Shown here one piece after another: positions 7,288 through 15,054 of a stretch of 64,000 nt of DNA (positions within the stretch are counted from its first letter, which is position 1; each line of letters opens with the position of its first letter). Below the pieces are notes generated by a model that had not been told where the DNA came from, did not search any database, and saw only the letters and a list, made by a program, of their open reading frames with translations. A program made the position numbers and the translations under genes. Source of the stretch: Pseudanabaena yagii GIHE-NHR1 (GTDB taxonomy: Bacteria > Cyanobacteriota > Cyanobacteriia > Pseudanabaenales > Pseudanabaenaceae); contig NZ_JAAVJL010000001.1 of the NCBI RefSeq assembly GCF_012863495.1, positions 2,909,501-2,973,500 on the forward strand, written 5' to 3'.

Positions 7288-7767
7288 ATGAGTCTGACAA
7301 TTACCAATGAATCATTAGCAACAACAAACTTAGAAAACACCTCTCTCTATGATCTTGACTATTGTGTATGGATTGAATCCATGAGCCAATTTCTACGAGA
7401 AGGTAAGTTCACGGAACTAGATATTCCGAATCTATTAGAAGAACTTGACGATATGAGTGGTAGTCAAAGAGATGCTCTGGAAAGTAATTTAGAAATAGTT
7501 TTGATGCACTTATTAAAATATCGCTTTCAGCCACAATTACGATCTCGTAGTTGGCTGTTAACAATTTTTGAGCATCGTAATCGTTTGAAGAAAGCCTTTA
7601 AACGTAGTCCTAGCCTGCAACGTTACTATCAAGAAGTTTTTCCAGAATGTTACCAAACTGCTCGAAAGATGGCATCACTTGAAACTGGGTTAATGATGTC
7701 GGATTTTCCTGAAATTAGTCCCTTTACAGCAGAACAGAGCTTAGATATAGATTATTTACCAGATTAA
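7288..7767 (+). CDS. DUF29 family protein
   Basis: 159 residues matching the DUF29 family, common in cyanobacteria: an N-terminal LYDLDYCVWIESMSQFLREG segment, then LDIPNLLEELDDMSGSQRDALESNL and a conserved HLLKYRFQP region followed by ..RNRLKKAF.. helices. The molecular function of DUF29 is unknown. The stop is only 12 bp before the Hsp70-like gene, so the two are likely cotranscribed; I see no sequence evidence for what they do together. Confidence 0.85.
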   Translation: MSLTITNESLATTNLENTSLYDLDYCVWIESMSQFLREGKFTELDIPNLLEELDDMSGSQRDALESNLEIVLMHLLKYRFQPQLRSRSWLLTIFEHRNRLKKAFKRSPSLQRYYQEVFPECYQTARKMASLETGLMMSDFPEISPFTAEQSLDIDYLPD

Positions 7768-7779
7768 AAGACAACACTC

Positions 7780-9381
7780 ATGGAATATGCGATCGACTTT
7801 GGTACGAGTAATACTGTTGTTGCAAGAATTAATGAGGATGGGGTGATTGAGACTGTTAAGTTAGCTGATTACAGTAGTCTCATTGCGAATAATCCATCAT
7901 TAGTTCCTAGCTTTGTTTACGTGCAGGATGCCAACAAAGAGCAAGTATTAATTGGTCAGGAGGTAAGTGATCGCGGTTTAGATAGCAAGAATTCTAAAGG
8001 CGAACAGCGATTTTTTAAGGCTTTCAAAAGAGCGATCGGTTCTAATGTTTCGATGTTTGTCCCAGAACTTGATGGGCGCGAAGTCGAATTTGAACTAGTG
8101 GGAGAATGGTTTTTAAAGAGAATTATTGAGCGCTTACCTGATGTAGATTCGTTGATTTTTACGGTTCCCGTTGATAGTTTTGAGTCCTATCGCAATTGGC
8201 TCGGTGGGGTCTGCGAGAAGCTAACTGTCAATCAGGTGCGAATCATTGATGAACCGACTGCGGCAGCGCTGGGCTATGGCATTAATGGTGGAGGGGAGAC
8301 TCTATTAGTAGTAGATTTTGGTGGTGGAACCTTAGATTTATCTTTAGTGAAGTTATCCTTTGCTCAAGTGCAAATAGAATCTAATCAGCCGAAATCTCCG
8401 CTTGGTTTTCTATTAAAATGGGGCAATCGCACTATCAAAAATACTGCTACATCTCATAACCAAAGTTCCCAAACTGCTAAAGTCCTCGCAAAAACAGGGC
8501 AAAATCTCGGTGGCATTGATATCGATAATTGGATTATTGATTACTTGCATCGAGAGTTAGGATTACCGAAAAATTCTCTCGTAACTCGTTTAGCGGAACG
8601 GATTAAAATAGCTCTTTCTAGTAGTGAATCTGTGATAGAAGTTTTCTTTAATGATCAAACCTTTGAGTCCTATGATTTAACTTTGACGCGATCGCAATTC
8701 AACCAAATTCTAGAACAACAGCAATTTTTTGTAAATCTTGATCTTGCCCTTGATCGCATTCGTCAACAAGCAACTCGCCAAAACCTTGATCTAGATCAGA
8801 TTGATGCGATTCTCTTAGTGGGTGGAACTTCCCAAATCCCTGCTGTAAAGGAATGGGCATTAAAACATTTCCCTAGCGAGAAAGTAAAAGCAGATAAACC
8901 CTTCGAAGCGATCGCACATGGTGCAATTTCCCAAGGTTGGGAACTCAAAGACTTTCTCTATCATAGCTATGGGATTCGCTATTGGGATAAGCGATATAAA
9001 AAACATAACTGGCATACTATCGTGAAATCTGGTACAACCTATCCCTTAGAAAAGCCAGTCGAACTAACTCTTGGTGCATCAGTTCCCAATCAGCCAAGCA
9101 TTGAGCTAGTCATTGGTGAATTAGGAGAAACCAATGTGGAAGTTTATTTTGAAGATCAACGCCTTGTCACCCGTGTGCTAGAGGGCAAGCAAGTTGCAGT
9201 CCAGATTCTCAATGAAAATAGTAAAGTGATTGCCAATCTCGATCCTCTGGGTCAAACAGGTAGCGATCGCATTAAAGTCTTTTTCCAAGTTGACGAAAAG
9301 CGTACTTTACGAATTACGGTTACTGATTTACTAACCAAGCAAAATTTATTGAGTAATGCTGCTGTTGCCCAACTAATGTAA
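7780..9381 (+). CDS. Hsp70-family (DnaK-like) ATPase, short form
   Basis: 533 residues. The actin-fold ATPase motifs are intact: phosphate-1 DFGTSNTVVARI (residues 5-16), DEPTAAALGYG, phosphate-2 VVDFGGGTLDLSLVKL, and adenosine motif LLVGGTSQIPAVKEW. After the ATPase domain only about 130 residues remain, much less than the substrate domain plus lid of DnaK (about 250), so it resembles the short divergent Hsp70 proteins of cyanobacteria. An insertion-like linker (residues about 205-240) follows phosphate-2. It lies 12 bp after the DUF29 gene. It may be a specialised chaperone; the substrate is unknown. Confidence 0.9.
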   Translation: MEYAIDFGTSNTVVARINEDGVIETVKLADYSSLIANNPSLVPSFVYVQDANKEQVLIGQEVSDRGLDSKNSKGEQRFFKAFKRAIGSNVSMFVPELDGREVEFELVGEWFLKRIIERLPDVDSLIFTVPVDSFESYRNWLGGVCEKLTVNQVRIIDEPTAAALGYGINGGGETLLVVDFGGGTLDLSLVKLSFAQVQIESNQPKSPLGFLLKWGNRTIKNTATSHNQSSQTAKVLAKTGQNLGGIDIDNWIIDYLHRELGLPKNSLVTRLAERIKIALSSSESVIEVFFNDQTFESYDLTLTRSQFNQILEQQQFFVNLDLALDRIRQQATRQNLDLDQIDAILLVGGTSQIPAVKEWALKHFPSEKVKADKPFEAIAHGAISQGWELKDFLYHSYGIRYWDKRYKKHNWHTIVKSGTTYPLEKPVELTLGASVPNQPSIELVIGELGETNVEVYFEDQRLVTRVLEGKQVAVQILNENSKVIANLDPLGQTGSDRIKVFFQVDEKRTLRITVTDLLTKQNLLSNAAVAQLM

Positions 9382-9954
9382 TTGTCGCTTTATTGCTCCA
9401 ATTCTGTGGATAAAACAGATTTAAGTACCCAGAATTGGGAGGCTTAGAGGAGTATATTCCTAGACTTTTAAATAAAAGTCTATAGCATTTAATTCTTAAA
9501 ACTTTTCCAAGGCTTTAATAATCTGAAATTAATTTACAAAAAAATGAATGGTCATCCAATAGTAGAAAACCATTCATACAGGGGTAGTTAAATAATTGCA
9601 ATTAGTTTAGCAAATTAAACTAATTACAGATGGGTAAGAGTTAAACTGTGCCTAAGACATTTAAATAGTCTAGTCTGTCTAATGATATGATTTACCTCCC
9701 TTATTTACTAGTAGTTTGTAATGGAAATATTTCAATTAGTAAGATCATAAAACACGCAAGAATAATTTACAAGCTTACATATTTAAACCTATTCCCATTA
9801 AGATATTATCATATTTTTTATAATTATTAAACATCTACAAACAAAAAAATTGCATTTTGCAGGAGTAATTAATTTATTTTTATCTATATATTACTAATTC
9901 TTAAATCTATGATTAATTCTCTATGAAAATTATTATAAAACCATTAATGACAGC
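9382..9954. other. AT-rich convergent spacer
   Basis: 573 bp between the convergent Hsp70-like gene and the cold-shock-like cluster. A hairpin TAGACTTTTA-AA-TAAAAGTCTA (9461-9482) may stop transcription after the Hsp70-like gene, although it lacks a clear T tract. The remainder is strongly AT-rich with no convincing ORF, RNA gene or mobile element. Confidence 0.5.
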
Positions 9955-10701
9955 CTAGAACGCAAAATAAGAAAAAACAAAAAAGCAAAGTATTGTCATA
10001 GGGAATAGACAGACACCCACTACCAAAGTTACATTTTTTAAACTACCTTTTCCAGCAATTTGTTTCTGTATCATATAAAGAGTATAAATACTACAAATAA
10101 CGGAAGTGGAAACAAATATAAATAATTGGCATTGCATCGTAAATGGAATCACAAATTGTGACGTACTAAACTCATCGGCATTGCTTTCGATAAGTAATTG
10201 GTTTAGCCTATTTAGATAGGATGATAAAATTTTATTTATAGCTAAGCAGACAGAAACAACAAATAATATACAAAATGATATGCCAACCTGTATTAAAGTA
10301 TTGATTCTTATTTTCAATTTGGATTGCTGAAAATATTTATACTTAATTTCTTTATATGATTGATTGTCAGGGGAACTATAATCATCAATAAAGTCGAAAT
10401 TGTTTATATTCTCAATAAATTCATCGAAATCATCGTTACTACTTTTTAACTTATAGTATCTATCCATATCTAGATCATATTTCCTATCAGATTCTAGTTT
10501 TATATATCTAGATGGTAAAACCATAGAAATTGAGCGCACATAAAATGGATTTTTACCAACTTCAAAATCAACTGACATACCTACAGTAATTGGTAATAAT
10601 CCATAATAATTATAGGCGTTGAATTGATAGACTTTGCCAAAGCTATCACGGATAAATCCCCTTTGAGTTTCAATATTAAATTTGATAATTGTGCCTTGCA
10701 T
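9955..10701 (-). CDS. Cold-shock-like domain fused to a three-helix membrane domain
   Basis: 248 residues. Residues 1-75 (MQGTIIKFNIETQRGFI, YQFNAYN, VGMSVDFEVGKN) match the two small proteins encoded just upstream and have the rhythm of an OB/cold-shock fold: short strands around G-x-I-x-x-F and G-F-I. An acidic linker (DDFDEFIENINNFDFIDDY) follows, then three hydrophobic helices at about residues 136-159, 185-212 and 222-248. The layout resembles known proteins that couple a cold-shock domain to a DUF1294 membrane domain, but the membrane part does not look like DUF1294. Function unknown; possibly a membrane-tethered RNA- or ssDNA-binding protein. Confidence 0.7.
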   Translation of the reverse strand: MQGTIIKFNIETQRGFIRDSFGKVYQFNAYNYYGLLPITVGMSVDFEVGKNPFYVRSISMVLPSRYIKLESDRKYDLDMDRYYKLKSSNDDFDEFIENINNFDFIDDYSSPDNQSYKEIKYKYFQQSKLKIRINTLIQVGISFCILFVVSVCLAINKILSSYLNRLNQLLIESNADEFSTSQFVIPFTMQCQLFIFVSTSVICSIYTLYMIQKQIAGKGSLKNVTLVVGVCLFPMTILCFFVFSYFAF

Positions 10702-10740
10702 TGTAATACTTAATTAACAATAAATTTATTAACCATAGTT

Positions 10741-10974
10741 TTAATAAGATTCAAGATTTTTATCATTTCCTATTTTTACAAATCTAGACGACAAAATCAC
10801 ATAGATTGAATGCACATCAGATAAGTTTCCAGAAACTTGAAAAATAACCTTCTCCCCCACTAGATTGGGTAAATTGTGACAATTATGTGCATTAAATTTA
10901 TAAATATTACCAAGATCACATTTAATTAATCCTTCTTGGGATTCATAATCAAATCCAATAATTCTACCCTGCAT
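10741..10974 (-). CDS. Small cold-shock-like protein, paralogue 2
   Basis: 77 residues, starting MQGRIIGFDYESQEGLI with a GGAG Shine-Dalgarno 5 nt before the ATG. It aligns along its whole length with its neighbours: MQGxIIxF, QxGxI, YxFNAHN, VG, FxV, then SSRFVKI. This is the spacing of a single OB-type cold-shock domain, but the usual aromatic RNP1 motif (KGFGFI) is not present, so nucleic-acid binding is uncertain. It lies 39 bp upstream of the membrane-fused paralogue. Confidence 0.65.
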   Translation of the reverse strand: MQGRIIGFDYESQEGLIKCDLGNIYKFNAHNCHNLPNLVGEKVIFQVSGNLSDVHSIYVILSSRFVKIGNDKNLESY

Positions 10975-10993
10975 TTTATCTCCTAATTAATAA

Positions 10994-11224
10994 TTACGAA
11001 TCAGGAGTTTCAGTCATTAATCTTACATATCTAGCTAATAAAACCACATAGAGTGAGTGTATTTTGGATGAATCTTTATCAACTTCAAAGCTAGCAATTT
11101 CACCTACAAGAGTTGGCGATAGAGAAGGATAGTTATAGCAATTAAATTTATAAACATTACCCGAATCAGAACGAATTAATCCTTCTTGAGTATGAGTGTC
11201 AAAACTAATAATCCTTCCTTGCAT
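10994..11224 (-). CDS. Small cold-shock-like protein, paralogue 1
   Basis: 76 residues from the ATG at 11224 (MQGRIISFDTHTQEGLI). The frame is open to 11260, but 11224 is preferred: a strong GGGAGG Shine-Dalgarno sits 4 nt upstream, and the start then matches both paralogues. The shared blocks are YKFNCYN, LVGEIASFEV and ARYVRL. The stop is 19 bp from the next paralogue, so all three genes probably form one transcript read toward 9955. Confidence 0.65.
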   Translation of the reverse strand: MQGRIISFDTHTQEGLIRSDSGNVYKFNCYNYPSLSPTLVGEIASFEVDKDSSKIHSLYVVLLARYVRLMTETPDS

Positions 11225-11261
11225 TTTACCCTCCCAGTCATCATAAAACTCCTCAAACATA

Positions 11262-11522
11262 TCAATACCTATCTATAAAATCATCAAACCCTTCTTGCAA
11301 AAAATTTATCAATATGACAATTTTTCCAATTTTATTAAATACTTTAAATTTTTTAAAAAACTTTACTGATATGCTGGACTTCTGGAGTCCAGAATTATAG
11401 ACAATATTATTTATTTTATTGCGTGATTTAATCATATGTTTAAAATTATTTGTCCGTATATATTCAGACCTACAATTAACGTCTATTTCTAGATATGGCA
11501 AACTCACACTTATTGCTAACAA
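11262..11522 (-). CDS. Doubtful small ORF upstream of the cold-shock-like cluster
   Basis: An 86-codon frame rich in Lys, Ile and Phe in AT-rich DNA, ending 37 bp before the start of paralogue 1. It resembles no family I know and has no clear Shine-Dalgarno. Its last residues (EGFDDFIDRY) resemble the acidic linker of the membrane-fused paralogue (DDFDEFIENI), so it could be a decayed relative; more likely it is a chance frame. Confidence 0.2.
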   Translation of the reverse strand: MLAISVSLPYLEIDVNCRSEYIRTNNFKHMIKSRNKINNIVYNSGLQKSSISVKFFKKFKVFNKIGKIVILINFLQEGFDDFIDRY

Positions 11523-12093
11523 TCACTTAAATGCTTGTAATAAGTTATTTTTGTTTTGTATATGAGTTGTTTACGTTTTCTTAGCTTTGAAATAGGTATG
11601 AAATAACTAACACCCGCTATCTAAGTAGCGTAAGCACCTAGATATATCTAAGTTTCAAGGAGATTTAATAACTTTGAAAAACAATATAAATCGCAACTTT
11701 TGTTTGCGTAAGCAGCACTTAGTTAGATAAAGCTAAGTGACCAGTGAGGAACCTAAGGACTTTAACTATTTAGATATCTGAATGTAACCCACCCGTTATT
11801 AGGAATTTATTTCTTGCCATAAAACCCTATATATACACAACATATCACAGTATTACAGAATATTGCAAATAAAATATCTGTAATTGATTAGTTGAAATAT
11901 GACTTCAAACTAGGATTTTCAATTAGGAGAGTTTGGATACGATTACATTGTTATTGTATCCAAACTCTCCTAATATTACTCCGAAAATCTGCCTGATATC
12001 ACCATTTTTAGTAAATGTCCAATCAGAACTGCCAATAAGTTTCTTCTTGTTTTCGCTATTTTCTCACAAAAGTGAGCGTCACCTTTATTAATT
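11523..12093. other. Structured AT-rich spacer
   Basis: 571 bp without a convincing gene. Between about 11610 and 11760 several small hairpins sit close together: GCTA-TCTAAG-TAGC, the palindrome TAGATATATCTA, and CACTTAG-10 nt-CTAAGTG (11716-11739). The clustering would suit a leader or small RNA, but I cannot match it to a known riboswitch. The large palindrome at 11922-11974 is listed separately. Confidence 0.35.
11922..11974. repeat. 19-bp perfect inverted repeat
   Basis: ATTAGGAGAGTTTGGATAC (11922-11940) is the exact reverse complement of 11956-11974, around a 15-nt loop. It lies downstream of livG (minus strand) and could end that transcript, but has no T tract. It could also be a small non-autonomous palindromic element. 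Confidence 0.7.
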
Positions 12094-14180: not shown

Positions 14181-15054
14181 GAAAGCATTTAAGAAAGCAA
14201 GGGCGGACTAAAACAGGTATGAATACTGATGAAGTCTAGTATCAGCCAGCCAAAATGCGCCAACCCTATAATACCGATTTATCCAATGAAGAGTGGGAAA
14301 TAATTGCACCAATGATGCCAAAACCATCAAAATTGGGGAGACCACCAAAAACAAATTTTCGGGAAGTGATGAATGGAATTTTCTACATAGCCAAGAATGG
14401 TTGTACATGGGAAAATCTGCCCCATGATTTGCCACCATATTCAACGGTCTACTTCTACTTTCAAAGATGGACAAAAACAGGAGTTATAGCTGAAATCAAT
14501 TACCAGATAAGCACACAAGTACGATTAGCAGATGGTCGAGAAGCAACACCGAGTCTAGCCAGTCTCGATAGTCAAAGTATTAAAACAATGGATAGTGCAG
14601 GTAGTCGTGGTATTGATGGTGGAAAAAAGGTTAAGGGTCGCAAACGATTCATCATGGTTGATACGTTAGGGTTAGTCTTCGGTGCTCTCGTCTGCCCAGC
14701 AAATGTTGGCGAGAGAGCAGGAGCGATGAGACTATTAGCAAATCTCAAGTATCCACTGAGACGCTTACAAAAGATATTAGTTGACAAGGGATTCTCTGGC
14801 GAGGATATCACCCAGTGGGTTAAAGACAACTTTAGTTGCACTTGGGAAGTAAGCAAACGGGCTGAAGCGCAGAAAGGGTTTGTGGTTGAATCAAAGCGTT
14901 GGGTAGTGGAGAGAACCTTCGCTTGGATAGACAAATATCGTAGACTTAGCAAGGACTATGAATTTTATGAGAATATCTCAGAGTCGTTTATTTATATAGC
15001 TTTGATCCGAAAAATGCTTAAAAATCTTACTGCTGTCAATTCTTAAATGCTTTC
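14181..15054 (+). mobile_element. IS5-family insertion sequence (IS1031-like), complete
   Basis: 874 bp bounded by perfect 15-bp terminal inverted repeats GAAAGCATTTAAGAA (14181-14195) and TTCTTAAATGCTTTC (15040-15054). The flanking TAA at 14178-14180 and 15055-15057 fits the 3-bp TNA target duplication of the IS1031 group. It lies between an IS1 remnant and a pentapeptide-repeat gene, whose 3' end it alters. Confidence 0.85.
14255..15046 (+). CDS. IS5-family transposase
   Basis: 263 residues, apparently intact. The N-terminal DUF4096-like segment is present (LSNEEWEIIAPMMPKPSKLGRPP, NGIFYIAKNGCTWENLP). The DDE catalytic core shows ASLDSQSIK (first D), LVDKGFSGEDI (second D) and VVERTFAWIDKYRRL (E). 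The stop lies within the right terminal repeat. Nothing suggests inactivation, so this copy may still be mobile. Confidence 0.92.
   Translation: MRQPYNTDLSNEEWEIIAPMMPKPSKLGRPPKTNFREVMNGIFYIAKNGCTWENLPHDLPPYSTVYFYFQRWTKTGVIAEINYQISTQVRLADGREATPSLASLDSQSIKTMDSAGSRGIDGGKKVKGRKRFIMVDTLGLVFGALVCPANVGERAGAMRLLANLKYPLRRLQKILVDKGFSGEDITQWVKDNFSCTWEVSKRAEAQKGFVVESKRWVVERTFAWIDKYRRLSKDYEFYENISESFIYIALIRKMLKNLTAVNS

Follow-up and report, generated by a model that had tools for sequence, protein, structure and literature searches.

The canonical marks of a cold-shock domain (CSD) are the aromatic residues of RNP1 together with W11, and an RNP2 motif of the form V-F-V-H-F. Among the bacterial proteins that carry such a domain at the N-terminus are SO_1732 and SO_0733 of Shewanella oneidensis, and proteins of this type we take to be CSD-DUF1294 membrane proteins. 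Each is described as a CSD whose C-terminal extension is without known relatives, and a Shewanella CSD protein with a C-terminal extension is placed outside the cold response (PMC3168786). For the protein Unr, CSDs without the RNA-contact residues are reported not to bind RNA and to make interdomain contacts instead (PMC7383231).

Here, we compare with these systems a row of three genes, A, B, and C, from Pseudanabaena yagii, located in a stretch of 64,000 nucleotides that was analysed as a whole (the window). The N-terminal module shared by the three proteins resembles the cold-shock proteins of PF00313 (CspA 1mjc, TmCsp 1g6p) in its predicted five-stranded OB barrel, its length, its G-x-I register, and its profile and structure matches; it differs from them in lacking the RNP1 aromatics, W11, and H33, and in being missed by the Pfam model, and protein C differs further by the addition of a linker and membrane segments. 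SO_1732 and SO_0733 have a similar arrangement of N-terminal CSD and C-terminal extension, and the CSD of SO_1732 (2kcm) is what the family profile matches best by sequence in the PDB; however, 2kcm keeps Y, F, F, H, and F at the RNP positions and is followed by a different C-terminal part. The non-canonical CSDs of Unr, or pseudo-RNA-binding domains (pseudo-RBDs), are alike in having a CSD fold without RNA-contact residues and possibly in a domain-contact role (PMC7383231), but Unr is eukaryotic, multi-domain, and without a membrane anchor, and we do not claim that the degeneration reflects common descent. Bacterial TM2 (PF05154), DUF805 (PF05656), and DUF4234 (PF14018) proteins have the same N-terminal module and a similar small size, whereas the anchor of C resembles Yip1 (PF04893), at a score below the Pfam cut-off.

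What is new here is the recurrent adjacency of module genes, with unlike anchors in 6 of 11 cases and seemingly separate duplications. The comparison outlines a domain family in which A–C have no Pfam, NCBIfam, or PHROGs model and whose members head small uncharacterised TM2-type and DUF805-type membrane proteins, and it raises the question of what role a cold-shock fold has on a membrane after losing most of its RNA-binding residues. Because side-by-side module genes occur in unrelated bacteria too, there are hints that the domain has been reused for docking.

Three adjacent genes share an N-terminal module

The first-pass annotation of this DNA had reported three consecutive genes with a common N-terminal module, two of them stand-alone and the third continued by an acidic linker and three membrane segments. 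Open frames on the minus strand and tblastn within the genome bear out both parts of this description, with a common module of ~62 residues (Table 1). Searched against its own genome, protein A finds B at E 1.6e-18 and C at E 5.6e-15; no further module copy was found in the 5.57-Mb genome, where the next tblastn row (E up to 1) has an E of 0.36 and two internal stops. The modules of A and B are identical at 35 of 61 aligned residues, and those of A and C at 30 of 62. Coding constraint on all three genes is supported at the sequence level; pairwise dN/dS (NG86) is 0.36–0.53 among A, B, and C, at dS 0.78–1.16, and 0.25 between the solo relatives from two other Pseudanabaena species.

Good ribosome-binding sites precede genes A and B: GGGAGGG at 11229-11235, just 5' of the start codon of A, and AGGAG at 10980-10984, upstream of the start of B; no clear site was seen in the sequence upstream of C. 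An upstream ATG at 11260 is an alternative start for A that would give a protein of 88 aa. The gaps across A-B-C are 19 nt and 39 nt, and this spacing suggests that the three genes form one operon. Promoter-like sites are fewer than in shuffled sequence.

Table 1. Features of the module gene cluster (positions in the window)
Feature	Position	Strand	Basis or remark
Gene A, stand-alone module protein, 76 aa	10994..11224	-	ATG at 11224
Module of A, residues 1-62, very probably a non-canonical cold-shock domain	11039..11224	-	model, structure comparison, profiles
Gene B, stand-alone module protein, 77 aa	10741..10974	-	
Gene C, module, linker, and three hydrophobic segments, 248 aa	9955..10701	-	
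Module of C, residues 1-62	10516..10701	-	full-length C model
Linker of C, residues 63-110, mostly acidic	10372..10515	-	model confidence low
Membrane part of C with its three hydrophobic segments, residues 131-248	9958..10311	-	
AT-rich interval; close relatives lack a counterpart between these flanking genes	9382..11881		comparison with genus

The module is very probably a divergent cold-shock domain

From the strand pattern, the module had been read as an OB fold like that of cold-shock proteins, and a structural model, Foldseek, VIA-align, and profiles of relatives all agree with this reading. A predicted structure other than an OB barrel had been set beforehand as a refutation, and none was obtained: the AlphaFold2 model is a five-stranded barrel with a pLDDT of 81.5 (block means of 93, 92, 92, 76, 91, and 85 over residues 1-60). 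The top Foldseek match of this model is CspA (1mjc; E 3.7e-3, probability 1.00), with no match at E<=0.001 and with other OB folds (IF-1, CusF) ranking close behind. In VIA-align, the first 13 rows (Z 9.0–7.8) are all cold-shock domains, and 49 of the 50 listed rows are titled as, or known to be, CSD proteins, Unr chains included, most of them at a Z below 8, which may reflect just a common arrangement.

Single sequences of A, B, and C gave no convincing match in Pfam, NCBIfam, PHROGs, or the PDB, and none of the three matches PF00313 at the Pfam gathering score. Weak matches of single sequences to RNase P component 2 and DTX3L (E 0.05–0.7) were unsupported by wider profiles and were set aside. 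A profile of 22 relatives, built without the window rows, matches 2kcm in the PDB at E 9.5e-6, and cold-shock proteins account for 16 of its 19 matches up to E 1; for a profile of 33 rows, they make up 26 of 31 matches, three of them below E 0.01. With hhalign, the Pseudanabaena-type rows align to the wider relatives at 98.2% (E 3.2e-14) and to four cold-shock proteins at 32.1, against 21.4 for the best of 60 column shuffles and 12.0 for reversal; the other family rows reach 43.7 against cold-shock proteins, where the best of 60 shuffles is 14.5. When the five Pseudanabaena-type rows alone were used in an hmmsearch of the PDB, cold-shock matches were not significant (E 0.91 for the best CSD and 0.17 for an RNase P component). 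An NCBIfam scan of 15 full-length relatives found one match to CspF (E 0.0031) and one to CspH (E 0.029).

With structural Z scores mostly below 8, it is the sequence evidence that makes common descent of the module and the cold-shock proteins likely. Fold and family are well supported, and the reading of the module as a non-canonical, or 'pseudo', cold-shock domain is very probable from model, structure comparison, and profiles together. The first-pass annotation had not recognised the family; it is right that no Pfam, NCBIfam, or PHROG model covers A–C, but the module appears to belong to a divergent branch of the cold-shock domains found in several phyla. We found no description of it in the open-licence PMC literature, a search in which spaced versus hyphenated spellings can miss papers and which does not establish absence from print. 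PF00313 finds nothing in the host genome at E<=0.1, in a search that was positive in 10 of 14 control genomes.

Most residues for single-strand binding are replaced

The absence of an RNP motif, also proposed from the sequence at the outset, holds for RNP1, whose aromatics are lost, and no intact motif is present, but for RNP2 the result is partly register-dependent. We compared residues by aligning 26 family rows to three cold-shock proteins (MAFFT, CspA numbering). W11 of CspA is replaced in 26/26 rows, the positions of F18 (two of these being gaps) and H33 are likewise lost in 26/26, and that of F20 is aromatic in just five of the 26, module C, with F, among them. At F34, 25 of the 26 rows have F in the MAFFT register; a HMMER alignment to TmCsp places Y and F on the F31 and F34 positions, and a gapless HMMER alignment to 2kcm keeps neither. 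Since the outcome at F31 and F34 varies with the alignment register, RNP2 is not plainly lost. By this alignment, the module has kept the barrel and lost most single-strand-binding residues, with part of RNP2 uncertain.

Protein C combines the module with a membrane anchor

The hydrophobic segments of C span residues 131-163, 184-202, and 220-248, and its linker has a net charge of -6 over residues 71-125. In a full-length model (pTM 0.42), the barrel is followed by the linker and three long helices, with block-mean pLDDT of 89–97 across residues 1-60. Five K/R residues lie within residues 111-130, before the first segment, and a K-rich stretch follows the second, so that the positive-inside rule predicts a cytoplasmic N-terminus, and the module of C would then lie at the cytoplasmic face of the membrane. 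The anchor is related to a longer Yip1-like membrane protein in two cyanobacteria, G087 and G101, in which the module was not seen. Against Pfam Yip1 (PF04893), C scores 13.2 bits and the G087 relative 21.3 bits, both below the gathering score of 28.6.

Relatives head small membrane proteins in several phyla

In the genome_contigs collection, 81 stretches match a search pattern, and 31 of these encode a relative of the module: 18 from Alphaproteobacteria or labelled Proteobacteria (mainly Brevundimonas), five from Acinetobacter, three from Verrucomicrobia, three from Campylobacterota, one from Trichodesmium, and one labelled Pseudanabaena biceps. Hydrophobic segments follow the module in 29 of the 31, the other two (L063 and L081) being short frames, and a Pfam scan of 15 full-length relatives assigns DUF805 to seven, TM2 to five, and DUF4234 to one. 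Judged by these sequences, the module is apparently a divergent cold-shock-domain branch at the N-terminus of small membrane proteins. A loop motif around SGDDGxRYxF is conserved in the wider family; its SGDDG part is not kept in copies A–C.

Six of 386 sampled cyanobacterial genomes have a module match at E<=0.001, one of the six being an ordinary CSD protein. In another search, which gave matches in 25 genomes, partial matches (for instance, in the genus g32, covering residues within 24-60 only) were not counted as module proteins, and the matches in G016 and G044 were left out as ordinary CSDs by eye. Within the genus Pseudanabaena, 4 of 26 genomes have a match, one of them apparently contamination, and within the family, 5 of 38; two other Pseudanabaena species have a single soluble copy each.

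The module profile also reached two ordinary-looking CSDs in other settings, one ending a long repeat-rich protein (L019, from G016) and one ending a small cysteine-rich protein (L022, from G044). The locus filed as Pseudanabaena biceps (L078, and L044 of genome G387) encodes a module-DUF805-like protein similar to that of a Brevundimonas locus (L076); given a contamination of 6% in G387, L078/L044 is probably a Brevundimonas-type stray contig.

Module genes recur side by side

Of the 31 genome_contigs loci, 11 have a second module gene next to the first. Genome-wide, at least two module matches occur in 15 of the 31 genomes, with two copies 0.6–1.2 kb apart in 11 of these 15, and the remaining 16 genomes have a single copy. 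In two multi-copy genomes, G431 and G449, both without a neighbouring pair, the second copy is a weak match (E 9e-7 and 3e-7) in a long frame. Adjacency is far commoner than expected by chance, at a p of 3e-25 that treats species as independent and is a rough scale only. Neighbouring copies occur in about six lineages: Acinetobacter, Brevundimonas, one verrucomicrobial genome, one member of the Helicobacteraceae, the cyanobacterium G187, and the window. The first-pass annotation had pointed to other cyanobacteria as the place to look for conserved clusters; G187, with two module genes in one row and one gene between them, fits this expectation, but otherwise the module is rare there and neighbouring module genes recur outside the cyanobacteria.

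The two members of a pair have different kinds of anchor in 6 of the 11 genomes. TM2 and DUF805 module proteins are encoded convergently in four of five Acinetobacter genomes (all four pairs), the verrucomicrobial pair has modules identical at 44 of 57 positions and anchors that differ (one without a Pfam match, one weakly DUF2628-like at 17.6 bits, cut-off 23), and the Helicobacteraceae pair has two unlike hydrophobic parts. Pairing on unlike anchors is not a rule, because there are also single copies, solo soluble copies, and five Brevundimonas pairs that combine DUF805 with DUF805 where scanned (both members in L064 and L070, one in L066).

A tree of the modules, with few columns and partial resolution, places A, B, and C with the solo Pseudanabaena copies (99/96) and clusters the members of a pair together in the verrucomicrobial genome (96/96), the Helicobacteraceae (91/89), and G187 (91/75). 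The TM2 modules of Acinetobacter form one group (98/86) and its DUF805 modules two small groups, and in Brevundimonas the two positions tend to part (96/96, 84/74), with L070 placed otherwise. On these groupings, the copies seem to have arisen by separate duplications in several lineages and to have remained adjacent across species in two genera.

When the ORFs of the 31 loci were compared between groups, no partner gene common to several genera was found besides the module genes; two clusters (of three and two members) span groups, and one of them consists of frames antisense to module genes. The comparison took Brevundimonas and other Caulobacteraceae as one group and so speaks to neighbours shared between groups rather than within that one. 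Six other cyanobacterial loci have only module genes, an ABC-type match, and a kinase-type match in common with window positions 1-22000.

A candidate role in protein docking and its alternatives

We consider docking the most likely working mode of the module. Protein C would hold one pseudo-CSD at the cytoplasmic membrane face, and A and B would be soluble copies from what the spacing suggests is the same operon; module-module contacts, or contacts with a common partner, would bring soluble A and B to the anchor C, or, alternatively, A and B would compete with C for the contact. A precedent exists in Unr, whose non-canonical CSDs act by interdomain contact rather than by RNA binding, and docking gains indirect support from other bacteria, where module genes are found next to each other time and again. 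However, adjacency is also expected from tandem duplication, and the single copies in 16 of 31 genomes, the solo soluble copies in two species of the genus, and the lack of a cross-genus partner gene among the loci compared count against it. The whole explanation, a pseudo-CSD module at the membrane working by protein docking, is a tentative one to which we give somewhat less than an even chance. A bacterial docking system at large, with one pseudo-CSD placed on several anchors and in soluble forms, repeatedly duplicated, and with copies that recognise each other or a common partner, is a speculative extension and on balance rather unlikely; if it were true, each locus would be a small matched set of soluble and membrane-bound parts, and the pseudo-RNA-binding-domain idea, shown for eukaryotic Unr, would reach bacteria.

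The module might instead bind RNA or ssDNA, through the remainder of RNP2 or another face, with C localising transcripts or ribosomes at the membrane and A and B acting as soluble versions. Such a binder would agree with the CSD fold, with the two RNP2 aromatic positions perhaps kept in one register, with the net charge of +3 for the module of C (residues 1-70), and with a genome in which no CSD is detectable by Pfam and in which the modules could fill that place. The losses of W11, F18, and H33 in 26/26 rows and of F20 in 21/26 appear to lower the odds of a canonical RNA chaperone, however, and A and B have net charges of -2 and -1; further, the Shewanella CSD protein SO1732 is described as not cold-induced and as dispensable for growth in the cold (PMC3168786). 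We regard a membrane-tethered nucleic-acid binder as unlikely. A small-molecule or ion sensor, in which a ligand in the barrel switches the attached membrane domain and soluble copies serve as buffers or decoys, would explain why one module heads several anchor kinds, as sensor domains do, and would suit the conserved loop motif of the wider family, but the window copies have lost the SGDDG part of that motif, stand-alone copies fit poorly, and we know of no ligand for the module; we judge it improbable.

Under neutral or selfish duplication, the module gene would have been duplicated locally within a laterally gained AT-rich segment, leaving A and B without a present role. This would account for an AT-rich interval that close relatives lack at this site and for the few matches within the genus, yet all the dN/dS values given above are below 1, the ribosome-binding sites of A and B are good, and adjacent pairs have been retained across several Acinetobacter and Brevundimonas species, and we attach little probability to it. 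An anti-phage or toxin-antitoxin unit, with C as a membrane-disrupting effector and A and B as antitoxins that carry the same recognition module, would suit a short AT-rich gene row of patchy occurrence in which a membrane protein is accompanied by small soluble proteins. One of 15 relatives scanned weakly matches the PADLOC model 'TPR fused to cold shock-like domain' (E 0.0027), PADLOC 4TM effector models appear at E 0.013–0.02 in the same scan, and a retron effector family of NCBIfam is weakly matched (E 0.066). A, B, and C themselves, however, have no PADLOC match up to E 1, and the conserved flanks of the cluster give no evident defence island, so that a defence unit seems very unlikely.

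Genomic setting of the cluster

GC content is 29% over 9955-11260, compared with 42% for the window. The flanking genes, Hsp70-like and livG-type ABC, are present in 26/26 and 25/26 genomes of the genus, and in 8 of the 25 other genus genomes they lie ~30 bp to 2.2 kb apart; the module is absent from all eight. The gap between the flanks is ~580 bp in three genomes (G399, G346, and G406). It holds a DUF29 gene in G399 (E 6.6e-53), and window positions 11882-12066 are a remnant ~75% identical to part of this gene; the remnant aligns likewise in G346 and G406. The cluster is either a lineage-specific gain or a segment lost by the others. A phage or plasmid origin was rejected, as protein A alone, searched by tblastn against 50,697 phage and 72,556 plasmid records, had no match.

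Three further features lie close by. At 11922-11974, inside the DUF29 remnant, is an inverted repeat with 26-nt arms that are 92% complementary and 1 nt apart, perhaps a MITE or a hairpin. A DUF29 protein adjoins an Hsp70/MreB-like ATPase of 533 aa at 7288-9381, and this ATPase is found in 26/26 genomes of the genus. Finally, a transposase of the IS4/5 kind (DUF4096 and DDE domain) is encoded at 14255-15046, ~3 kb from the cluster.
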